DNA of 64,000 bases from Sinorhizobium arboris LMG 14919 (GTDB taxonomy: Bacteria; Pseudomonadota; Alphaproteobacteria; Rhizobiales; Rhizobiaceae), in the NCBI RefSeq assembly GCF_000427465.1, contig NZ_ATYB01000014.1, positions 2,131,570 to 2,195,569 of the forward strand, given 5' to 3'. This document shows, piece by piece, positions 4,454 to 53,316 of the stretch (positions are counted from its first letter, which is position 1; every line of letters begins with the position of its first letter). The translations under genes and the position numbers were made by a program. The notes beneath the pieces are model-generated. The model was not told where the DNA came from. It did no database searches and saw nothing but the letters and a program-made list of their open reading frames with translations.

Positions 4454-5584
4454 ATGGCTGACATCGAAATTCGTGCCGTGCGTAAATCCTACGGAAAGAA
4501 CCCGACCCTGCATGGCATCGACCTCGCCTTTGCGTCGGGAGAATTCGTCGTGATCCTCGGCCCGTCCGGGTGCGGGAAGTCAACGCTCCTGAGGATGATC
4601 GCGGGGCTGGAGGAAATCACGGGTGGTGAGATTGCCATCAACGGACGGGTCGTCAACAGACTCGAGCCGCGCGAACGCGGCTGCGCCATGGTGTTCCAGA
4701 ACTACGCCCTCTATCCCCACATGACCGTCGCGGGAAACATCGGATATGCCCTGAAGGTAGCCGGCATACCAAAGGCGGAGCGCCTGCGGCGGATCGAGGA
4801 GACAGCGAAGATCGTCGGGCTTTCCGATTATCTCGACCGCAAGCCCGCGGCACTCTCCGGCGGTCAGCGCCAACGCGTCGCCATGGCTCGCGCGATTATC
4901 CGCGAACCGAGCGTATTCCTTTTCGACGAACCCCTTTCGAACCTGGATGCCAAGCTGCGCGTCACCATGCGAGCCGAGATCCGGAAGCTGCATCAGCGTC
5001 TTTCGGCAACGTCCATCTTTGTCACCCACGATCAGGTGGAAGCCATGACGCTCGCCGACAAGCTCGTCGTCATGAACAAGGGCGTCGTCGAACAGGTGGG
5101 ACAGCCGCTCGACATCTACCATCGTCCTGCAAGCATTTTCGTCGCGTCCTTCATCGGCTCGCCGGCAATGAATCTGTTCGATGCCCGTATCGACGTCGAC
5201 AGCGCCTGCCTGGCATTCGCCGGCGCGAAGCTGCCGATCGACAGGAGGCTTGCGGCACGCCTGGGCTCGGGAAACGTCACGGTTGGCATTCGCCCGGAGC
5301 AGTGCGTCGTGGCGCCTGAAGCAAAAGGCGGCGTCGCGATGAAGGTGGAGTTCATCGAGGAGCTCGGATCCGGCCGCGTCATCCACTCGGAGCTGAATGG
5401 CCATCCCTTCGCCGCCTGCGTCGACGAGCAAACGCGCGTCCGGCCGGGCGATTGGATCAGCCTGGCCATGCCATTGGCGCAGCTGCATGTCTTCGACCGA
5501 GAGACAGGCCGAAGGATCGAGGTCGATCTGGATCCTCGCGCCGTCCCTGGCTCCGCCGGCCATCCGGCACTCGAAACCGTTTGA
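4454..5584 (+). CDS. ugpC: ABC transporter ATP-binding protein, UgpC/MalK-like
   Basis: Cytoplasmic ATPase that powers the preceding permeases, 376 residues. Order of motifs: Walker A GPSGCGKS (about residue 36), Q-loop [13 protein letters not shown], signature LSGGQRQR, Walker B FLFDEP, D-loop [10 protein letters not shown]-loop VTHDQVEA, then a C-terminal regulatory TOBE/OB region with the family motif GIRPEQ. All catalytic residues are canonical. The C-terminal region could bind an inducer-exclusion or phosphate-signalling partner as in MalK/UgpC, but nothing in the sequence shows which. Confidence 0.9.
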
Positions 5585-7085: not shown

Positions 7086-7129
7086 GTCGTTTCCTTTCCG
7101 TGAGGTGTTGTTGCCTGACCCCGCGATGC

Positions 7130-7897
7130 TCAGATCGCCCGGGCTACGCGTTGCAAGATGTCGAGATAGCCGCCGACGTCCCAGGCGGAGCGGCCGATGA
7201 AAAGGCCGTCGATATGCGGTTGGAGGATCAATTCCTCGCAGTTCTGCGGATTGACGCTGCCGCCATAGAGCACCGGAACCTTCACGCCGAGCGCTCGCTC
7301 GGCGACTTCGGCGATGCGGCGATGACGGGCGTCCGCATAGTCGGCCGTCGCCGGTATGCCGTTGACGCCGATCGCCCAGACGGGCTCGTAGGCCAGAAGA
7401 ACGGGCGCCGTGCGCGCCGCGCCTTCAAGAAATGCAAAGGCGCCTTCCACCTGGCGCTTCAACACCGTGTCGGCCTCGCCGGCCTCACGTTCTGCGAGCG
7501 TCTCGCCGATGCAGATCAGCGGAACCAATCCGTGCTTCACCGCCGCTGCCGTCTTCAGGCCAACGGTCCGGTCGGTCTCGCCGAAATGCTCGCGCCGCTC
7601 GCTGTGTCCGAGCTCGACGATGTCGAGATCGCAGTCCCTGAGCATGACGGGAGAAATTTCGCCGGTCCAGGCGCCCGCATCGTCCCAGTGCATGTTCTGC
7701 GCGCCGACCTTGACGCTCGTCGCCTTCAACCTTTCCTTCACCTGCCGAACGGCGGTGAACGGCGGGATGACGAAGCGCTGTACGCGCTCGTCGCGCGCAT
7801 CGTCCGCGGCCGCCAGGCCATCGGCGAAGGCCATCGCCTCAACCAGCGTCTTGTTCATCTTCCAGCTCGTGCCGACCCAGAGTCCAGACTTGCTCAT
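7130..7897 (-). CDS. tpiB: Triose-phosphate isomerase paralogue, probable tetrulose-4-phosphate isomerase (EryH-like)
   Basis: TIM-family isomerase of 255 residues. Catalytic Lys (SWKMNK), His (ELGHSERR) and Glu (AYEPVWAIG) and the phosphate loop (LYGGSVN) are all visible. The first motif reads GTSWKMN, so the usual Asn of NWKMN is Ser. In Brucella the paralogue TpiA2/EryH isomerises D-3-tetrulose-4-phosphate in the erythritol pathway. The start overlaps the stop of eryR by 4 bases (ATGA), so the two are translationally coupled. A housekeeping role in glycolysis is less likely given the operon and the substitution. Confidence 0.87.
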
Positions 7898-8679
7898 GCC
7901 TTCTCCAATATTTTCCCGTCGTCGATCCTGACGAGCCTGACCCCGGCGTCGCCGAGTGCGGCTGCGTATTCATCCGAGACGCCGCTCCCGGTCAGCACCG
8001 CATCGAACGCGGTGAGTTCCGTCAGGAAATGCAGCGCCGAACGGCCGAACTTCCCGTGATCCACGAGGAGATATTTGCGGCTGGCGGATTTCACCATCTG
8101 CCGCTTGATCTGCACGACCTCCTGGTCCTGGTGGAAAGCCGCCGTACCCTCGACCGCCGAACTCGACAGAAGGGCCACGTCGGCCCGCAGCGAACGCAGC
8201 GCCTCCTCGGTGACCACACCGAAAAAGCCGTTGAACTTCTTGCTGTAATGGCCGCCGAGCGCGATCAGGTTGATGCCCGGGGCTCCCGAAAGATCGGCGA
8301 TGACACCGAGATTGTTGGTAATGACGGTGAGCGGGCGAACGTCCCTCAGAAACCCGGCGATCGCGCCGGCCGTCGAACTGTCGTCGATGATGATGCTCTG
8401 GCCCGGCTCGATCAACGTTGCGGCATATGCGCCAAGGCGGCGCTTTTCGCCCGTCGCGATCTTCTCGCGGTAACGGAAATCGCTTTCGAATTGCGGACTC
8501 GACTGGATGGAGGCCCCGCCGTGGACTTTTCGCAGCAGGCCCGCCTGCTCGAGATCGTCAAGATCCCGATGAACCGTCATCTTGCTGACGCCAAAGCGAA
8601 GGCCGAGTTCCTCGACGGAGGCCGTGCCTGCCTCCATCAGCACATCCATGATCGCCTGGCGCCTGTCTTCCGGTTTCAT
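7894..8679 (-). CDS. eryR: DeoR-family transcriptional regulator (EryR-like)
   Basis: Cytoplasmic DNA-binding regulator, 261 residues. Residues about 5-57 are the DeoR winged helix (RRQAIMDVLMEAGTASVEEL, then TVHRDLDDLEQAGLLRKVHGG). The rest is the sugar-phosphate-sensing domain found in this family, with DDSSTAGAIAGFL and LLVDHGKFGR. It heads a three-gene unit (eryR, tpiB, rpiB) with its own AT-rich upstream region. DeoR proteins usually repress the neighbouring operon until a phosphorylated intermediate binds, so autoregulation from 8721-8787 is the likely mode. Confidence 0.87.
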   Translation of the reverse strand: MKPEDRRQAIMDVLMEAGTASVEELGLRFGVSKMTVHRDLDDLEQAGLLRKVHGGASIQSSPQFESDFRYREKIATGEKRRLGAYAATLIEPGQSIIIDDSSTAGAIAGFLRDVRPLTVITNNLGVIADLSGAPGINLIALGGHYSKKFNGFFGVVTEEALRSLRADVALLSSSAVEGTAAFHQDQEVVQIKRQMVKSASRKYLLVDHGKFGRSALHFLTELTAFDAVLTGSGVSDEYAAALGDAGVRLVRIDDGKILEKA

Positions 8680-16177: not shown

Positions 16178-17751
16178 TGCGGTCTTTCCTGTTGTTTTCC
16201 CGTTCCGGCTGCGTGGGAGAGCGCATGCCAGACGGGTTGAAGCGCAAGGCGCGACTGCTTGTAGGCGGGGAAAAGCGCGTCATAGCGGCGTGCGAGCTCT
16301 GCATCCGCGGGTTCTGCCGGCCGATGGTGCGGCCGCACCCATTCGTGAACGCAATCGGCCATGCAGGGGTACATGCCGAGGGAGACGGCGGCGATCATCG
16401 CTGCGCCGGCGGCACCCGCCTCTTCGCGTTCGCTCGTCTGGACGCTGGCGCCGAGGGCCCCGCCAAGGATGCGGCGGAGTGAGGCGCTGCGAGCGGCGCC
16501 GCCCGACAGTCGCACGCAGGACGGCAGCGGCCCCATCGCGGCGTAACAGTCCCGCGCGGCAAAGGCGAGACCGTCGAAGACCGCGCGCACCATGTCGCCG
16601 AAGCCGTGATTGATCGTAAGCCCGACGAAGGAGGCGCGAGCCGAGGCATCCACAAAAGGTCCGCGCTCACCGGCCTCCGAAATATAGGGCTGGAAGAGAA
16701 GCGGGGCTTCCCTCGCCTCGGCAAGCCAGCCATCCACCTGGGCGAGCAGATCGCTCTTCGATTTCTCGACTCCCATTCCCTTGAGGAGACCTCCCGCGAG
16801 CTGCAGGATCCAGTCGATATTGAGCGTCGCCGCCATATTCGACTGCATCTGCGCATAGGTGCCGGGAATCGGCATGCACATGGTGTAGCCGGTATGGTCT
16901 TGGTTGAGCCGGACATCGTCGGCGCCGGCCGCCAGACGCATGTGCATGCCCGTCGAGCCGATAATGGAGCAGCCCGTGTCGGTTCCGGGCTCGTAGAGGC
17001 CGGCGCCGAGCGCCGTGCAGACCACATCGACATAGCCGAGCACGACCGGCGTCCCCGCCGGCAAGCCCGTGGCGGCCGCGGCGGCGGCCGAGAGCGGGTG
17101 ATGCGTGCTCACCCCGTCGACGATTTCCGGCAGCAGGTGCTTGAGCTCGTTGAGACCGAGAAAGTCGATCACCTCATCGCAATACTGGCGCTTGCGGAAA
17201 TCGCCGAAGGTGAAATTCGCCTCCGAGGGATCGGTCGCGCGCTTGTCCGTGAGGTTGAAATAGAGCCAGTCCTTGCAATGGAAAGCGGTCGCAGCGCCTT
17301 GCAGCATCTCCGGCGCATTCTCCTTCATCCAGCGCAACTGCGGACCCTGCTGGCAGGCGGCGAGACCCGAGCCGGTGCGCAAGAAACGCTCCGCATCGCC
17401 GCTTTCGGCACGCAGGCGCTCGACGATTGTGCTCGCGCGCGCGTCGAGCCAGAGCCAACCCTTGCCGACGGGTTCGCCGCCGCGATCGATCATCCAGGTG
17501 CCGTCTCCCTGACCGGTCACCGCGATGGCGGCAACACGGCCAGGGAGGTTCTCTATCCTGGCCGAGAGCTCGACCAGGGTTTTGACTGTGTCCGTCCAGG
17601 TACGCCGCAACTCCTGAACGCTGCCGGTGCGGCCCACCGCCTCATAGCTGTTCGGAACCGCCGTCATCGCCAGCTGCCGGCCGCCGAGATCGAAAGCGAC
17701 CGACTTGATGACGGACGTCCCGGCATCGATGCCGATGAGGATGTCGCGCAT
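16174..17751 (-). CDS. eryA: Erythritol kinase EryA (FGGY family)
   Basis: Cytoplasmic kinase, 525 residues, phosphorylating erythritol to L-erythritol-4-phosphate with ATP. N-terminal GIDAGTSVIKSVAFD, central GQGDGTWMID and GWLWLDARA, ATP-site region GCSIIGSTGMHM and C-terminal RLSGGAARSASLRRIL follow the FGGY pattern, and the length matches Brucella EryA (about 519). Its ATG shares one base with the stop of the upstream ATPase gene (TGATG), which couples uptake to phosphorylation. In S. meliloti the same kinase is thought to act on other polyols too. Confidence 0.88.
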   Translation of the reverse strand: MRDILIGIDAGTSVIKSVAFDLGGRQLAMTAVPNSYEAVGRTGSVQELRRTWTDTVKTLVELSARIENLPGRVAAIAVTGQGDGTWMIDRGGEPVGKGWLWLDARASTIVERLRAESGDAERFLRTGSGLAACQQGPQLRWMKENAPEMLQGAATAFHCKDWLYFNLTDKRATDPSEANFTFGDFRKRQYCDEVIDFLGLNELKHLLPEIVDGVSTHHPLSAAAAAATGLPAGTPVVLGYVDVVCTALGAGLYEPGTDTGCSIIGSTGMHMRLAAGADDVRLNQDHTGYTMCMPIPGTYAQMQSNMAATLNIDWILQLAGGLLKGMGVEKSKSDLLAQVDGWLAEAREAPLLFQPYISEAGERGPFVDASARASFVGLTINHGFGDMVRAVFDGLAFAARDCYAAMGPLPSCVRLSGGAARSASLRRILGGALGASVQTSEREEAGAAGAAMIAAVSLGMYPCMADCVHEWVRPHHRPAEPADAELARRYDALFPAYKQSRLALQPVWHALSHAAGTGKQQERPQ

Positions 17752-18875
17752 CAGGCGAGCTCCTCTCCGTGCGAAATCGCCATACCGCTCTCGCTGTCGA
17801 AGACGTGCAGGCTTGCAGGGTCGAGCCGGATGCCGATCGGCTGACCGATCTCCAGGCTGGTACGGTCATGTTCGACAAGCACCATGGTGCCGCCCGCGAA
17901 ATCGGCCGCGATATGGGTCTGGTCGCCAAGCCATTGATTGACGGCAACCCGCCCCGTCACCCCGTCGGCACTGCGCCGGACGGAATAGGGACGGATACCG
18001 AGAACCACATTCTGGCGCTTCATCAGCGCATCTCGAACCGCATGCGAGAAATCGGCAGCCTGGTATTCGAGGCGGACTCCGTCCTTGAGACCGAAGGTCA
18101 TGCGGGCGTCCGTGGCGCTGACGCTTGCCTCGAACACGTTCATCGGCGGCTCGCCGACGAAGGTTCCGGTAAAGAGATTCGCCGGCCGTTCCTTGATCTT
18201 CTGCGGCGTGTCGAACTGCTGCAGCACCCCGCCTTCCATGACGGCGATCCGGTCGGCGAGTGCATTCGCCTCGGTCTGATCATGGGTGACCAGAATGGCG
18301 GTCAGCCCGCGCTCCTTGATGTAGTGCTTGATGCGGCCGCGCAGCACGGCGCGCAACTGCGGCTCCAGCTGACCCATCGGCTCGTCGAGGAGATGCAGGT
18401 CGGCGTCGCGGATAAGCGCACGTCCGAGGGACGCCCTCTGCTGCTGGCCGCCGGAAATCGAACTCGGATAACGCCCGAGAATGTCTTCGATCTCGAGCAG
18501 CTTGGCGATGCTCGCCACCTTCTCGTCGACAACACTCTGCGAAAGTTTCGACGCCTTGAGCGCAAAGGCTATGTTTTCGCGTACCGTCAGCGGCGGATAG
18601 AGCGAATAGCCCTCGAAGGCCATGGCGACGTTGCGGCGGACCGGCGCGAGCATATGCACCTGCCGGCCGGCGACAGAGATCGTCCCGCGCGATACGGGTT
18701 CAAAGCCGGCGATCATCCTGAGCGTCGAGGTCTTGCCGCAGCCTGAAGAGCCCAGAAGCGCGATGATCTCACCCTTCTTCACCTCCATGTTCAACTGCTT
18801 TACGGCGTGAACGCCATAGTCGACCGGACCATAGAACTTGTCGACATTGTCGATCAAAAGAGCGGTGGCGTTCAT
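17751..18875 (-). CDS. Polyol ABC transporter ATPase 1 (near-canonical, altered Q-loop)
   Basis: 374 residues. Walker A GSSGCGKT (42-49), signature ISGGQ (140-144), Walker B HLLDEP with catalytic Glu165 and H-loop His198 (VTHDQTEA) are intact. The Q-loop Gln is Glu88 (AMAFEGYSLYP) and the D-loop is GQLE in place of SNLD. A C-terminal TOBE region carries GIRPYS. It overlaps the next ATPase gene by ATGA and should form a heterodimer with it. Rhizobial glycerol importers (GlpS/GlpT) have the same two-ATPase layout. The start ATG at 18875 is set by the overlap. Confidence 0.88.
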   Translation of the reverse strand: MNATALLIDNVDKFYGPVDYGVHAVKQLNMEVKKGEIIALLGSSGCGKTSTLRMIAGFEPVSRGTISVAGRQVHMLAPVRRNVAMAFEGYSLYPPLTVRENIAFALKASKLSQSVVDEKVASIAKLLEIEDILGRYPSSISGGQQQRASLGRALIRDADLHLLDEPMGQLEPQLRAVLRGRIKHYIKERGLTAILVTHDQTEANALADRIAVMEGGVLQQFDTPQKIKERPANLFTGTFVGEPPMNVFEASVSATDARMTFGLKDGVRLEYQAADFSHAVRDALMKRQNVVLGIRPYSVRRSADGVTGRVAVNQWLGDQTHIAADFAGGTMVLVEHDRTSLEIGQPIGIRLDPASLHVFDSESGMAISHGEELA

Positions 18876-19990
18876 GCCGCTTCTCCATTGCGCTTGGATG
18901 CCAATTCGGAAGGAAGGATGCGCTGGCCCGTCGCCTTGTCGAACAGAAGGGCTGCGCGGCCGTCGACTGCGATATGCGCCGGTCCGGCGACCGGGCCGGG
19001 TGTGCCGGCAGGGCGGGACACCAGGATCTCCCTGCCGCGGGCCGTCAGTGCCAGGGTCACCGTCTTCTCGTTGAGCGGCGTTTCCGCCTCGACCGTCACG
19101 GGGATCGCGCCATGCGCGGTGGCTTCGGCGAAGGCGATCGTTTCCGGACGCAGCCCGAGGACGCACTGCTTTGCGACGATGTCCGCCCCGAAGCCCTGCA
19201 GGCGCAGCCGCACGTCGGAGAGTTCGACGAAAGCGCCGTCCGGACCGCGCTGCGGCACGACATCGAGCAGGTTGATGGTCGGATCGCCGAAGAGCCGGGC
19301 GATCTCGATGTCGGCGGGCGCGTTGTAGATTTCCGCCGGCGTGCCGATCTGCCGGATACGCCCATGCGCCATGACCGCGATGCGGTCGCCGAGCGCCATT
19401 GCCTCCTTATAGTCCTGGGTGACGTAGATGACGGTTGCCCCTTGAGCGGCAAGCAGGCGCGGCAGTTCCAGCCTCATCTCGAAACGCAGCTTGGCGTCGA
19501 CGTTGCGGAGCGGATCGTCGAGGAGCAGCAGCGGCGGCGAGCCGACCAAGGCGCGGGCAAGCGCCGTGCGTTGCTTCTGGCCGTTGGAGAGCGCCTTCGG
19601 ATGATGGCTCAGCACATGATCTATCTTCAGGAGCTTTGCGACCTTGTGCACGCCGGCGGCAATGGTGTCCCTGGACGACTTGCGCGAGGTCAACGCGCTG
19701 GCGATGTTGTCGAAGGCGCTCATATGCGGGAACAGCGCAAAGTTCTGGAACGCCATGCCGAGGCCGCGATGCTCGGCGTCCACGTCCGTCATGTCCTCGC
19801 CGCCGATCAGGACCCGGCCGCCATCCGGTTCGATGACGCCGGCGATCAGCCGGAGCAGAACGGTCTTGCCGGAACCCGACGGGCCGAAGAGGACCAGCCG
19901 TTCGCCATCGGCCACGTCGAGCGAGAGATCGTCCAATACCGCCTGGCTCTTGAAGCGCTTGACGATGTTTTTCAATTGCAGCGTGGTCAT
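18872..19990 (-). CDS. Polyol ABC transporter ATPase 2 (degenerate catalytic motifs)
   Basis: 372 residues. Walker A GPSGSGKT (36-43) and Q-loop Gln82 are normal. The signature is LSNGQ (134-138), the catalytic Glu after Walker B is Asp159 (LLLLDDP), and the H-loop His is Gln192 (YVTQDYKEA). These changes usually mark a site that binds ATP but hydrolyses it poorly. With ATPase 1 as partner, the dimer would have one degenerate and one active site. The ATG at 19990 fits the family length. The permease stop is 5 bases upstream. Confidence 0.88.
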   Translation of the reverse strand: MTTLQLKNIVKRFKSQAVLDDLSLDVADGERLVLFGPSGSGKTVLLRLIAGVIEPDGGRVLIGGEDMTDVDAEHRGLGMAFQNFALFPHMSAFDNIASALTSRKSSRDTIAAGVHKVAKLLKIDHVLSHHPKALSNGQKQRTALARALVGSPPLLLLDDPLRNVDAKLRFEMRLELPRLLAAQGATVIYVTQDYKEAMALGDRIAVMAHGRIRQIGTPAEIYNAPADIEIARLFGDPTINLLDVVPQRGPDGAFVELSDVRLRLQGFGADIVAKQCVLGLRPETIAFAEATAHGAIPVTVEAETPLNEKTVTLALTARGREILVSRPAGTPGPVAGPAHIAVDGRAALLFDKATGQRILPSELASKRNGEAA

Positions 19991-19995
19991 TACGA

Positions 19996-20853
19996 TTATC
20001 CCTTCACCGCACCGAGCGACAGGCCTTCTACGAGGTAGCGCTGGGCGTAGAGTGCGAGTGCGAGCGTCGGCGTGATCGACAGCACGATCGCCGCGGCGAT
20101 CTGCCCGTACTGGATGCCGGAAGCCGTGACGAAGGCGAGCGCGCCGACCGTTACGGGCTGCTTGTCGGCCGAAGCCAGCACCAACGCGAACACGAAATTG
20201 TTCCAGGCGAAGATGAAGGCGAGCAGGCCGGCTGCCGCAATCCCGGGACCTGCCAGCGGCAGGGCGATTTTGCGGAAGGTCGAGAACCAGGAGTGGCCGG
20301 CGATACGGTAGGCGTATTCGACATCGGCAGAGATGTCCTCGAAATAGCCGCGCACGATCCAGAGGATGAGTGGAAGGCAGATCAACTGGTAGATCCAGAT
20401 GAGACCGAAATAGGTGTTCGAGAGGCCGAGCCACTGAAAATACTGCGTCAGGGGCAGCAGCACGAGCAGCGGCGGCGCAAAGCGGAAGGACAGCAGCGTG
20501 AAGGCGATGTCCTCCGATCCCCGGAACTTGTGCCGCGCGAAGGCATAGGCCGCCGGCACGCCGAGCAGGAGCGCGAGAGCCACGGAAGCGACCGACAGCA
20601 GGACCGAATTGCCGAGATTGCGCATGAACGCGATGTCAAGCGTGCCGGAGGCGGTCTGCAGCTTGCCGGTGATCAGCGCCGCATAGTTCTCGAGCGTCGG
20701 CGTGAAGACCACCGATGGGGGTATTCTCAGGATCGTCTCGTTCGTCTGGAAGGACATGAGGAAGATCCAGACGATCGGGAACATGAAAAAGATCACGACC
20801 AGTGTCAGCGCGACGCCGCGCAGAAGTCTTTCGACCGGAGACGTGGTTTCCAT
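19996..20853 (-). CDS. Polyol ABC transporter permease (MalG type)
   Basis: Inner-membrane permease of 285 residues with about six membrane segments. The EAA-type loop reads EYAYRIAGHSWFSTFRKIALP, diverged from the canonical EAAxxDG. The C-terminus LVEGLSLGAVKG is the classic end of MalG-type permeases. GGAGG-like ribosome-binding sequence precedes the ATG. It pairs with the next upstream permease and docks on the two unlike ATPases, so its EAA divergence may match the unusual ATPase partner. Confidence 0.87.
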   Translation of the reverse strand: METTSPVERLLRGVALTLVVIFFMFPIVWIFLMSFQTNETILRIPPSVVFTPTLENYAALITGKLQTASGTLDIAFMRNLGNSVLLSVASVALALLLGVPAAYAFARHKFRGSEDIAFTLLSFRFAPPLLVLLPLTQYFQWLGLSNTYFGLIWIYQLICLPLILWIVRGYFEDISADVEYAYRIAGHSWFSTFRKIALPLAGPGIAAAGLLAFIFAWNNFVFALVLASADKQPVTVGALAFVTASGIQYGQIAAAIVLSITPTLALALYAQRYLVEGLSLGAVKG

Positions 20854-20863
20854 TGTGACCTCC

Positions 20864-21787
20864 TTACGCTTCGCCGCGGGCGCGTTCGCGCAGCCGGAGC
20901 CAATTCTTGATGAAGACGTTCGACAGCGTGTAGGTGATCGCCCACAGAATGATCAGCAGCGCCGCGGACCGCCCCACATTGGTCGACTGGAAGAAGTTGA
21001 GGTAGGCCTCGACCTGGAAGACCGTCAGCGTGTCTCCGGGCCCGCCCTGCGTCATCGCGTATATGATGTCGAACTGCTGGATGGAATCGAGCAGGCGGAA
21101 GAGCGTCGCCGTCAGGATATAGGGCGTCAGCATCGGCAAGGTGATGCGGAAGAAGACGAAGCTGCGCGGCACGCCGTCGAGCGCCGCCGCTTCGAAAGGC
21201 TGCGTCGGCAGCGAGCGGAGGCCCGCGAGCAGCAGGATCATGATGAAGGGCGTATAGACCCAGATGTCCACGAGCACGACCGTCAGGAGCGCCGTGTCCG
21301 GCGACGATGCCCAGCGGAAGTTCTCGAGCCCGACGAGACTTGCGAGATAGCTCAGTATCCCGAAGCCCGGATTGGTCATCAGCTTCCACATCAGCGCCGC
21401 GAGCGCCGGCGCCGTCATCAGCGGCAGGAGCAGCATGATCGAGATGAAGTTGTTGACCGTGGAACGGCGCTGCAGAAGCAGCGCGATGCCGAGACCGAGC
21501 AGCAGCTCCAGGGTAACGGTGACGCCCGCATAGAGCAGAGAGATCTTGAGCGTGTTCCAGAAGCCCGGATCGGTGAAGAAGTTCAGATAGTTCTCACCCC
21601 AGTTGAACTGGCGTGCCCAGGGCTGGCTCAGCCGGTAGCGCTGGAAGGAATAAACCACCGCCGTGAAGAACGGGATCAGGATACCGATGCACACGAGAAG
21701 CGCCGGCAGGGAGAGCACATAGGGCAAGGCCCTCCTGCTGATCCTGAACCTGCCGCTCCTCGCGCCGGAGTGCGTTACTGAAGCCAT
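20864..21787 (-). CDS. Polyol ABC transporter permease (MalF type)
   Basis: Inner-membrane permease of 307 residues with about six membrane segments. The EAA loop is FEAAALDGVPRSFVFFRITLP, closer to the consensus than its partner. It lies 165 bases after the binding-protein gene, a gap with GC-rich hairpins, and 10 bases before the second permease. Forms the pore of the polyol importer (mptABCDE in S. meliloti naming; which letter belongs to which subunit was not assigned). Confidence 0.87.
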   Translation of the reverse strand: MASVTHSGARSGRFRISRRALPYVLSLPALLVCIGILIPFFTAVVYSFQRYRLSQPWARQFNWGENYLNFFTDPGFWNTLKISLLYAGVTVTLELLLGLGIALLLQRRSTVNNFISIMLLLPLMTAPALAALMWKLMTNPGFGILSYLASLVGLENFRWASSPDTALLTVVLVDIWVYTPFIMILLLAGLRSLPTQPFEAAALDGVPRSFVFFRITLPMLTPYILTATLFRLLDSIQQFDIIYAMTQGGPGDTLTVFQVEAYLNFFQSTNVGRSAALLIILWAITYTLSNVFIKNWLRLRERARGEA

Positions 21788-23515: not shown

Positions 23516-24475
23516 TCAGGCGGCAAGCGCCTGTGCCGTGCGCTCGTCCGTGATGAGCCCGCTCAGGAACCCGCTTTCGAGCACCGCGCGAATGGCGCGC
23601 GTTTTGATCCTGCCTCCCGCGACCGCAACGGTGCGGCGGTTCTTCAGGTCCTCCCGGCCAAGCGTGAAAGTCCGGTTGGAAAGCGCGGTTTCGATCGGCC
23701 TGCCTTTCTCATCGAAGAAGTGGCCGAGCAGTTCGCCCATGCCGCCACCTTTCTGAATCTGCTCGATTTCGCGCATCTCGATCATCCCGGTCGCCACCAG
23801 CGAGGCTTCGCGCTCCGCCGTGCCGATGCCGACCATCAGCAGGTCGGCCGACTTCGCGAGATCGAAGACTTCGCGCACGCCGCGCTGGCTGAAGAGGACA
23901 TCGCGATCCTCCACCGTGTTGGCGAAGAACGGCACCGGCATCACATAGGCCTCGGCGCCCGTGCGCTCGGCCAGGCGATGGATCACGTCATGCGGATTGG
24001 CGGAGAATTTGCGCGTGAGCCCGCCGAGCAGCGAAACGAAGCGCGTATTGTTGCTCGCGATGCGCGGCATGTATTCGATGCTGGCTGCCAGCGTGCGCCC
24101 GTGGCCGACGCCGATCAGCGCGGTCTCTCCGCGTTCGATCTCGCGCCTGAGAAATTGTGCGCCGGAGATGCCGAGCGCCTTCAGAGGCAGGTCGTCGCTG
24201 TCGAAGTCAGGGACCACTTCGCAATAGTCCAGGCTGTAACGGCCGGAAAGCTTCTGCTCCAGCTCGACGCATTCGGAAACGTCGCCGTCGATATAGACTT
24301 TGACCAGCCCCTCCTGGTTGGCCTTCATGATCAGCCGGTGCGCTTTGAGCGACGTGAGCCCCAGGCGTTTGGCGACCTCGGCCTGGGTCAGCCCGCCGGC
24401 ATAATGCAGCCACGCGGCGCGCGTCGCCATGCTCGCCTCGTCGTCGCGGACAGCCATTCCACCGATGATCGCCAT
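23516..24475 (-). CDS. eryD: SorC-family transcriptional regulator EryD
   Basis: Repressor of the erythritol genes, 319 residues from the ATG at 24475. The N-terminal HTH includes AAWLHYAGGLTQAEVAKRLGL; the C-terminal sugar-phosphate-binding domain contains LIGVGHGRTLAASIEYMP and GIGTAEREAS. An ATG at 24514 would give 332 residues but would place the first of three operator-like repeats inside the gene, so the downstream start is preferred. Brucella EryD represses the ery operon and is relieved by erythritol. Here it leads the polyol operon, so autoregulation is expected. Confidence 0.87.
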   Translation of the reverse strand: MAIIGGMAVRDDEASMATRAAWLHYAGGLTQAEVAKRLGLTSLKAHRLIMKANQEGLVKVYIDGDVSECVELEQKLSGRYSLDYCEVVPDFDSDDLPLKALGISGAQFLRREIERGETALIGVGHGRTLAASIEYMPRIASNNTRFVSLLGGLTRKFSANPHDVIHRLAERTGAEAYVMPVPFFANTVEDRDVLFSQRGVREVFDLAKSADLLMVGIGTAEREASLVATGMIEMREIEQIQKGGGMGELLGHFFDEKGRPIETALSNRTFTLGREDLKNRRTVAVAGGRIKTRAIRAVLESGFLSGLITDERTAQALAA

Positions 24476-24498
24476 GTCTCCACCCGATGCTGCGCTGC

Positions 24499-24549
24499 AT
24501 GATAATTTTTGCATCGCATGATATTTTTATCTCGATATGAAATAATTTT
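24499..24549 (-). promoter_or_regulatory. Three 19-bp-spaced direct repeats upstream of eryD
   Basis: ATGATAATTTTT (24499), ATGATATTTTT (24518) and ATGAAATAATTTT (24537) recur at exactly 19-base intervals in an otherwise GC-rich genome. On the minus strand the unit reads AAAATTATCAT. They lie just before the eryD reading frame and are a strong candidate EryD operator array and promoter for the whole locus. Confidence 0.6.
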
Positions 24550-25689: not shown

Positions 25690-26769
25690 GTGACATCCGC
25701 TTCGACGAACGACATCGAATTCCGTTCGGTCGCCAAACGCTATGGCAGCGTGACGGCCGTGTCGGACATCAACCTGGCGGTGCCGACGGGCGCCTTCGTG
25801 GCGCTGCTCGGGCCGTCCGGCTGCGGCAAGACCACATGCCTGCGCATGATCGGCGGCTTCGAGCAGCCGAGCGAAGGCATGGTCTATATCGGCGGCCAGC
25901 CAATGAACGGCGTGCCTGCCTATCGCCGGCCGGTCAACATGGTGTTCCAGCAATATGCTCTTTTCCCGCATCTCGACGTCGAGCAGAACGTCGCCTACGG
26001 GCTTAGGCAGATGCGCCCCCGCATTCCGGCCGCCGAGATCACCCGTCGCGCTCAGGAGGCGCTGGAGATGGTCCGCCTCGGCGGCTTCGGCAAGCGCCGC
26101 ATCCACGAGATGTCGGGCGGGCAGCAGCAGCGCGTGGCGCTCGCCCGCGCCATCGTCAACAAGCCGAAGGTGCTGCTCCTCGACGAGCCGCTCGCGGCAC
26201 TCGACAAGAAGCTGCGCACGGCCATGCAGATCGAGCTGCAGAGCCTGCAGCGCGAGCTCGGCATCACCTTCGTGCTCGTCACGCACGATCAGGAAGAGGC
26301 GCTCTCCATGAGCGATTTCGTCTGCGTCATGAGCACTGGCCGTATCGTGCAGATGGGGCCGCCGCAGGAGATCTACGACCGGCCGGCAAGCCTTTTCGTC
26401 GCCGATTTCGTCGGCAAGGCCAACCGCATCGCCGCGACGATCGCGCCCGGCGCGAATGCGGTGCTTCTCGCAAACGGCATCGGGCTGGCCAGGCCCGCCC
26501 ACGCCAACGGCACGGCGGGCCCGGTCACGGTGGCTCTGCGCCCGGAGGCGATACGTCTGGTGCGCGACGGCAACGCCGCGCTGCGCGGCACGGTGACCCA
26601 CCGCATCTTCCTGGGCTCGTCCGTCGAATATTCGGTGGAGGTCGAGGGCCTTGGCGATTTTCTCGTCACCGCCGACCGCCGCAGCTTCAACGAAAGCGAT
26701 CTCGCCGAGCCGGGCGAAAGGATCGGGCTCAGCTTCGACCCGAATGCAATGCACGTCTTTCCGGCCTGA
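25690..26769 (+). CDS. ABC transporter ATP-binding protein, PotA-like
   Basis: Cytoplasmic ATPase of 359 residues. Walker A GPSGCGKT, Q-loop VFQQYALFPHLDV, signature MSGGQQQR, Walker B LLLDEP, H-loop VTHDQEEA and a C-terminal TOBE domain with ALRPEAIR are all canonical for the polyamine/opine/iron(III) importer class. The start is GTG at 25690 with AGGGA before it. First gene of a four-subunit importer that runs through to 29821, next to the carnitine genes; a quaternary amine or polyamine substrate is likely. Confidence 0.88.
   Translation: MTSASTNDIEFRSVAKRYGSVTAVSDINLAVPTGAFVALLGPSGCGKTTCLRMIGGFEQPSEGMVYIGGQPMNGVPAYRRPVNMVFQQYALFPHLDVEQNVAYGLRQMRPRIPAAEITRRAQEALEMVRLGGFGKRRIHEMSGGQQQRVALARAIVNKPKVLLLDEPLAALDKKLRTAMQIELQSLQRELGITFVLVTHDQEEALSMSDFVCVMSTGRIVQMGPPQEIYDRPASLFVADFVGKANRIAATIAPGANAVLLANGIGLARPAHANGTAGPVTVALRPEAIRLVRDGNAALRGTVTHRIFLGSSVEYSVEVEGLGDFLVTADRRSFNESDLAEPGERIGLSFDPNAMHVFPA

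Positions 26770-52324: not shown

Positions 52325-53316
<992 letters not shown>

Follow-up and report, generated by a model that had tools for sequence, protein, structure and literature searches.

The transporter of the erythritol/adonitol/L-arabitol locus of Sinorhizobium meliloti has been named MptABCDE (PMC3599248, PMC10433430), and its polyol transport has been published for that species only (PMC10433430; here and below, PMC numbers refer to the portions of these papers that were consulted). The DNA analysed here (the window) was a stretch of 64,000 nucleotides from Sinorhizobium arboris LMG 14919, contig NZ_ATYB01000014.1, and all coordinates are those of the whole window. It carries the same locus, in which no difference from the S. 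meliloti system was found, and the analysis concerned its two adjacent ATPase genes, whose products were named by position MptD (ATPase 2) and MptE (ATPase 1). No mention of ATP-site asymmetry in MptABCDE was met in the consulted portions of PMC10433430 or PMC3599248, and at title and abstract level neither MptDE nor the glycerol ATPases GlpS and GlpT were found described as having a degenerate ATP site; the primary transporter papers (Geddes and Oresnik 2012, and a 2012 paper on glycerol in R. leguminosarum) lie outside that scope, so earlier notice is possible.

MalFGK2 and other MalK-type importers share their fold, domains and operon plan with Mpt, but their two ATPases are equivalent and the sites canonical. 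For the maltose importer, earlier work has suggested that both MalK sites need to be intact. Among exporters, the H-loop of TAP1 contains Gln. In ATP-binding cassette (ABC) transporters, a composite ATP site combines Walker A, Walker B, Q-loop and H-loop from one subunit with the signature from its partner (PMC7756269), and each D-loop supplies its Asp to the site of the other subunit, a rule given for TAP in a figure legend of PMC4242082. TAP1/TAP2 and other heterodimeric exporters resemble Mpt: in their degenerate sites the Walker B Glu of one subunit is replaced by Asp, often accompanied by a change in the H-loop, as in TAP, and hydrolysis is much slower (PMC7756269); the degenerate site of TAP binds ATP and does not hydrolyse it (PMC12422388). 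Consensus residues placed in this site of TAP reduced both ATP hydrolysis and transport (PMC7756269). These exporters differ from Mpt in having another membrane-domain fold and no binding protein, and their altered signature usually faces the degenerate site, whereas the altered signature of Mpt (LSNGQ) faces the other one. Among importers, one degenerate site has been published for the fused-ATPase CUT2-type proteins RbsA and NupO (PMC11466899); they are like Mpt in this respect, but carry both ATPase domains in one chain, and their second Walker A lacks the Lys that MptD retains (Lys42). Mpt is a variant of an already known kind in view of these two precedents. For the two-ATPase importer DppD/DppF of E. 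coli, both subunits are said to bind and hydrolyse ATP, and one structure contained ATP-analogue density in DppF (PMC12136057).

Unequal catalytic motifs in MptD and MptE

The positions of both ATPase genes in an earlier note on this DNA (the initial annotation) were correct, with the addition that both are minus-strand genes. The genes and their diagnostic codons were as follows:

18872..19990, minus strand: MptD (ATPase 2), 372 aa, MalK-type ATPase with degenerate Walker B Glu and H-loop His
17751..18875, minus strand: MptE (ATPase 1), 374 aa, MalK-type ATPase retaining catalytic Glu and His
19514..19516, minus strand: codon of Asp159 (canonical Glu), MptD Walker B, GAT/GAC in 88/88 genes
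19415..19417, minus strand: codon of Gln192 (canonical His), MptD H-loop, CAG/CAA in 88/88 genes
19583..19585, minus strand: codon of Asn136 (canonical Gly), MptD LSNGQ signature, AAC/AAT in 88/88 genes
18612..18614, minus strand: codon of Glu88 (canonical Gln), MptE Q-loop, GAG/GAA in 88/88 genes
18363..18365, minus strand: codon of Glu171 (canonical Asp), MptE D-loop, GAG/GAA in 88/88 genes
18381..18383, minus strand: codon of Glu165, catalytic Walker B Glu of MptE, canonical
18282..18284, minus strand: codon of His198, MptE H-loop, canonical

In MptD, the catalytic Glu of Walker B is replaced by Asp159 (LLLLDDP), the H-loop His by Gln192 (VTQD) and a signature Gly by Asn136 (LSNGQ); Walker A Lys42, Walker B Asp158 and Q-loop Gln82 are intact. 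In MptE, Glu88 replaces the Q-loop Gln (AFEGY) and Glu171 the D-loop Asp (GQLE); Walker B Glu165, H-loop His198 and the signature ISGGQ are canonical. All these substitutions had been named in the initial annotation, whose observation is confirmed: they were present in the protein sequences, and Asp159, Gln192 and Glu88 were also seen at the DNA level. The predicted structure of MptD (mean pLDDT 76.0, pTM 0.62, residues 72-83 below 50) was too modest for site geometry.

The two proteins are 32% identical. Both contained PF00005; OB_MalK and TOBE_2 were above cut-off in MptE, OB_MalK was under cut-off in MptD (23 vs 27), and the match of MptD to the MalK-like structure 2it1 spanned residues 2-357 of 372. 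The features of MalK-type (CUT1) systems were found, namely an ABC ATPase domain with a MalK-like C-terminal domain, and a binding protein and two permeases in the operon. The cut-off of the NCBIfam UgpC subfamily NF008653 (432 bits) was not reached (MptE 311.7, MptD 298.6). The top Protein Data Bank (PDB) matches of MptE, MptD and GlpS were MalK-, SugC-, AlgS-, MsmX- or PotA-type ATPases, and no Mpt or Glp name was present among the 60 best PDB matches listed for each.

For comparison, 87 other Mpt loci were assembled from the best 80 of 304 confirmed relatives in a genome scan and seven distant loci found by whole-protein searches (labels such as L002 or L123 denote loci compared). The scan was seeded with short MptD peptides and leans towards Gln192, because one of the seeds (TQDYKEAM) contains this residue. 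Subunits were sorted by their own motifs, and both types were present in every locus, encoded side by side in 87/87 and usually by overlapping genes. MptD had Gln82, LSNGQ, Asp159 and Gln192, and MptE had Glu88, Glu165, Glu171 and His198, in all 87 other pairs; canonical residues at the substituted positions, which the initial annotation had proposed to seek in orthologues, occurred in none. The interface elements of MptD (Walker A, signature and D-loop) were likewise retained in 87/87. The Walker A Lys of MptE was seen in 86/87, the remaining copy being the frame-broken one of L024. In this Rhizobium record, MptE is split over two reading frames (~7116-8239), as a pseudogene or by sequencing error.

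The same residues were invariant in the best 120 database matches listed for each subunit together with the window protein (121 each; 7478 and 7999 scored). In the seven distant loci, identity to the window proteins fell to 51-74% for MptD and 50-78% for MptE, and the whole Mpt operon was retained in these genomes; two of them (L134 and L135) had the MptE signature ISAGQ, not ISGGQ, which faces the degenerate MptD site. At E 1e-82, MptD was matched in 6/385 class-level genomes (S. arboris counted) and MptE in 4/398 phylum-level genomes: the Mpt ATPase family is narrow in distribution.

Minimum numbers of codon changes were counted on FastTree trees of the 88 genes. The Asp159 codon (GAT 68, GAC 20) had undergone at least 17 silent changes, the Gln192 codon (CAG 85, CAA 3) at least 3 and the Glu88 codon of MptE (GAG 62, GAA 26) at least 19; for Glu165 and His198 of MptE, which are canonical, the minimum was 15 and 17 changes. 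A single third-base transversion would turn Asp into Glu or Gln into His; none was seen, and no reversion to the canonical residue was found at the Asp159, Glu88 or Gln192 codons among the 88 genes. The ratio of non-synonymous to synonymous substitution rates (dN/dS, NG86) was 0.05-0.12 against L003, L004 and L006, for MptD and MptE genes alike. The substitutions are under selection for retention.

A higher rate of evolution in the ATPases than in the permeases was also considered as a mark of altered constraint, and was dropped. Identity to the window in the seven distant Mpt loci was 73-88% for permeases and 50-78% for ATPases, with a similar picture for Glp, but the Ugp control was unclean: orthology was doubtful in L221-L225, the UgpA query was truncated, the UgpC query had extra N-terminal residues, and in the three better Ugp loci the ATPase likewise lay below the permeases (55 vs 58-70).

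A search of the same genome gave more than 150 ABC matches, from which 49 stretches round the closest MalK-like ones were taken (51 ATPases); omission of the glycerol pair left a background of 49 ATPases. All 49 of these closest other MalK-type ATPases had canonical Lys, Gln, Glu, Asp and His and an SGG signature, and Glu88 and LSNGQ occurred in 0/49. The Mpt pattern is more than chance, because the same-genome ATPases are uniformly canonical and all 87 pairs retain the substitutions. Three adjacent ATPase pairs were recognised among the own-genome matches (by eye, from coordinates): Mpt, the glycerol pair L123, and L082 (C3:69500-74500), a MalK-type pair with canonical catalytic residues and the signatures LSGGD and LSGGE.

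Composite ATP sites and their possible division of labour

From the composite layout and the D-loop rule it follows that the MptD site would hold Asp159, Gln192 and Glu171 of the partner. This site (site 2) would consist of Walker A, Walker B, Q-loop and H-loop of MptD with the signature and D-loop of MptE, and its ATP-binding residues are intact. Site 1, in which Walker A, Walker B and H-loop come from MptE and the signature from MptD, would retain the catalytic Glu and His, but contain Glu88 and face LSNGQ. The initial annotation had likewise composed the impaired site from the Walker and H-loop residues of MptD and the signature of MptE, in agreement with the standard layout (PMC7756269). 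The D-loop change that it had listed for MptE is real, and belongs to the opposite, impaired site by the TAP rule (PMC4242082).

The best explanation, to which we assign a probability of about 0.68, is that the ATPase of MptABCDE is a heterodimer of MptD and MptE with two unequal composite sites, of which the MptD-based one binds ATP and hydrolyses it poorly, and the MptE-based one works. The MptD site is taken as the silent one because its losses (Walker B Asp and an H-loop change) match those of exporter degenerate sites; the catalytic losses are confined to one of the two ATPases and were conserved in 87/87 orthologous pairs. The uniformly canonical same-genome ATPases, the silent codon changes, the operon retained in the seven distant genomes, the ISAGQ of MptE in L134 and L135 and the one-sided losses of GlpS/GlpT (64/64 pairs, below) speak for this explanation as well. 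Site 2 would most likely hold ATP, with slow hydrolysis or none, and by holding it may prevent the dimer from opening fully between cycles. Site 1 would most likely fire once per transport cycle, despite Glu88 and the LSNGQ opposite, and would then be the only site to hydrolyse ATP.

Several points weigh against this explanation. Glu88 and the facing LSNGQ are found in 87/87 pairs, therefore neither site is consensus and the efficiency of site 1 is not readable from sequence alone; the working site that the initial annotation had placed on MptE stands as regards Glu165 and His198, but is less clean than it had proposed. Exporter sites with the Glu-to-Asp change are still capable of slow hydrolysis (PMC7756269). 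The MptE signature that faces the supposed silent site is SGGQ in 85/87 pairs, unlike the situation in GlpS/GlpT, and the division between two sites is read here from sequence.

The slow hydrolysis of such exporter sites (PMC7756269), the charge that Asp retains and the SGGQ of MptE in 85/87 pairs would also suit a transporter in which both composite sites hydrolyse, Asp159 and Gln192 being tolerated in the subfamily, with near-symmetric working and perhaps a slower cycle. We consider this unlikely: Asp159 and Gln192 occur together in 87/87 pairs and MptE keeps its Glu and His in 87/87, which argues for a fixed division of labour, not loose tolerance. It is distinctly improbable that each site is defective in its own manner (Glu88 and LSNGQ in site 1, Asp159 and Gln192 in site 2) and that the two cooperate in a slow scavenger; Glu88 and LSNGQ do equal Asp159 and Gln192 in invariance and are absent from the 49 compared same-genome ATPases, but Glu165 and His198 are invariant too.

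Solved MalK-type ATPases are mostly homodimers, and an MptE homodimer, with MptD in another role or transporter, would account for the presence of the catalytic Glu and His in MptE alone. MalK-type ATPases can moreover serve several importers (PMC7658222). Such unpaired subunits have very little probability when set against the adjacency of the genes in all 87 other loci, usually with overlap, and the interface elements that MptD has kept in every one of them. Decay or sequencing error in one strain is the least probable account of all and was ruled out, because the substitutions are invariant in 87/87 pairs and their codons change silently only, under purifying selection; no support for it was found, the sole damaged copy noticed being the MptE relative in L024.

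The glycerol pair GlpS/GlpT and the ancestry of the ATPases

The L123 pair (own genome C4:2964000-2975000) is preceded by a GlpD-type gene and followed by genes for two permeases and a binding protein, and we take it to be GlpS/GlpT of the rhizobial glycerol operon. It was compared across 64 pairs from 64 genomes: the own pair, 20 chosen down the identity range from 79 GlpS matches, 24 from the 30 loci of a joint-alignment search (4 were Mpt and 2 were repeated genomes), and 19 of 20 weaker matches picked, the twentieth (L276) being a single canonical ATPase. In these pairs GlpS retains the Walker B Glu, and its H-loop His is replaced by Thr (63) or Ser (1); GlpT retains Glu and His, and its signature lacks SGG in 64/64 (LTADQ and 13 other forms). 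These losses share one composite site and the other site is consensus, again in 64/64. GlpS matches at E 1e-90 were obtained in 79/120 relatives. A joint MptD/GlpS alignment gave matches at E 1e-88 in at most 176/398 phylum-level genomes, which is an upper bound because canonical ATPases pass this limit.

Like Mpt, GlpS/GlpT is an adjacent unequal MalK-type pair in which the product of the first gene has lost the H-loop His. The residues differ: GlpS keeps the Walker B Glu and has Thr or Ser for His, the degenerate signature is in GlpT, and the other site is consensus. Mpt does not belong to the GlpS/GlpT type, as the MptD H-loop reads VTQD vs YATTEP in GlpS, and MptE has SGGQ vs the degenerate signature of GlpT. 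The comparison with rhizobial GlpS/GlpT that the initial annotation had recommended yielded a second unequal pair, built on other substitutions. The asymmetry of this glycerol pair is new here, as is the grouping of MptD with GlpS (below). With the published cases of RbsA and NupO (PMC11466899), this asymmetry makes the statement that pairs with one degenerate site are not standard in importers too strong. Overall, the reading in the initial annotation is partly supported: its main line was right, its working site was too clean and its importer background too broad.

When 62 ATPase domains were placed in a careful tree, a branch with support of 99/94.5 had MptD and GlpS on one side, and its support was 99/93.7 after removal of five motif stretches; in a quick tree of 107 rows their grouping had an SH-aLRT of 92 and was not starred. 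MptE grouped with GlpT (92/79) when all columns were used; this grouping was absent from the quick tree, where GlpT lay among canonical rows and MptE apart, and was neither recovered nor rejected without motif columns (p 0.257). A single clade of MptD and MptE (one duplication within the system) was not rejected (p 0.18 with and without motif columns). For GlpS and GlpT as one clade, p was 0.105 with all columns and 0.010 without motif columns, and for all four proteins as one clade it was 0.102 (all columns).

The canonical rows came from one genome and branches were long; the trees hint at an old H-loop-less ATPase lineage, and at no more than that. Tentatively, at somewhat less than even odds, MptD and GlpS may go back to a single ancient lineage whose own hydrolysis site was abandoned prior to the separation of the polyol and glycerol importers. 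Such a lineage would define a distinct CUT1 subclass in which one subunit is dedicated to holding ATP and one site alone fires, with different retuning in the two branches (Asp/Gln in MptD, Thr in GlpS).

Operon setting and meaning of the unequal pair

The other genes of the operon, and those that flank it, were as follows:

19996..20853, minus strand: MptC, MalG-type permease with the unusual coupling loop EYAYRIAGH
20864..21787, minus strand: MptB, UgpA/MalF-type permease with an ordinary EAA loop
21953..23398, minus strand: MptA, solute-binding protein (SBP_bac_1)
23516..24514, minus strand: EryD by position, sugar-binding transcriptional regulator, precedes the transporter genes (PMC3599248)
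16174..17751, minus strand: EryA by position, FGGY carbohydrate kinase, directly after MptE

The order of transcription is regulator, MptA, MptB, MptC, MptD, MptE and FGGY kinase, followed by a 2-hydroxyacid dehydrogenase, a FucA-like aldolase, a glycerol-3-phosphate-dehydrogenase-type protein and more catabolic genes. The ATGA overlap of the ATPase genes and the eryA gene after them, both described in the initial annotation, were seen again; the kinase is EryA by position, and its gene overlaps that of MptE by one base, within TGATG. The coupling (EAA) loop of MptC (20248-20319, minus strand) lacks the usual Asp, and that of MptB is ordinary. The Asp of the 'DG' step was present in 28 of the 29 other MalG-type permeases examined in the genome, with Glu in one (34 matches, 30 with loci, one of which was MptC). 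In the 87 Mpt loci, the MptC loop reads E[YHN]A[YH]R[IL], and one of these loci (L142) has Asp at the 'DG' step. The odd MptC loop beside the ordinary MptB loop implies that the asymmetry reaches the docking side.

An annotated S. meliloti record contains matching genes in identical order; its gene table is incomplete and has no entry for three of them, including the binding protein and one permease. Identity of the two ATPases to those of an S. meliloti locus (L002) is 97.0 and 98.7%. By these features the S. arboris genes are assigned to the S. meliloti-type erythritol/adonitol/L-arabitol locus with its transporter MptABCDE, and polyol transport by the S. arboris copy is predicted from gene order and identity. 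In S. meliloti, double mutants in smo genes and mptB did not use erythritol (data not shown in PMC10433430).

Two further features of the window were recorded. Three more MalK-like ATPases are encoded at 4514-5518, 25690-26769 and 52325-53035, all on the plus strand (L094, L120 and L121), and have canonical motifs. The N-terminus of MptA (DRRGLLKGLGAAG) carries what we take to be a twin-arginine-like signal, suggesting Tat export.

MptDE and GlpST look like relatives in which one site has been kept silent by evolution. They would lend themselves to the question of whether one hydrolysis per cycle suffices for a type I importer, and to that of the purpose of a silent, ATP-holding site; both systems offer an easy growth read-out in a harmless soil bacterium, with erythritol or glycerol as sole carbon source.

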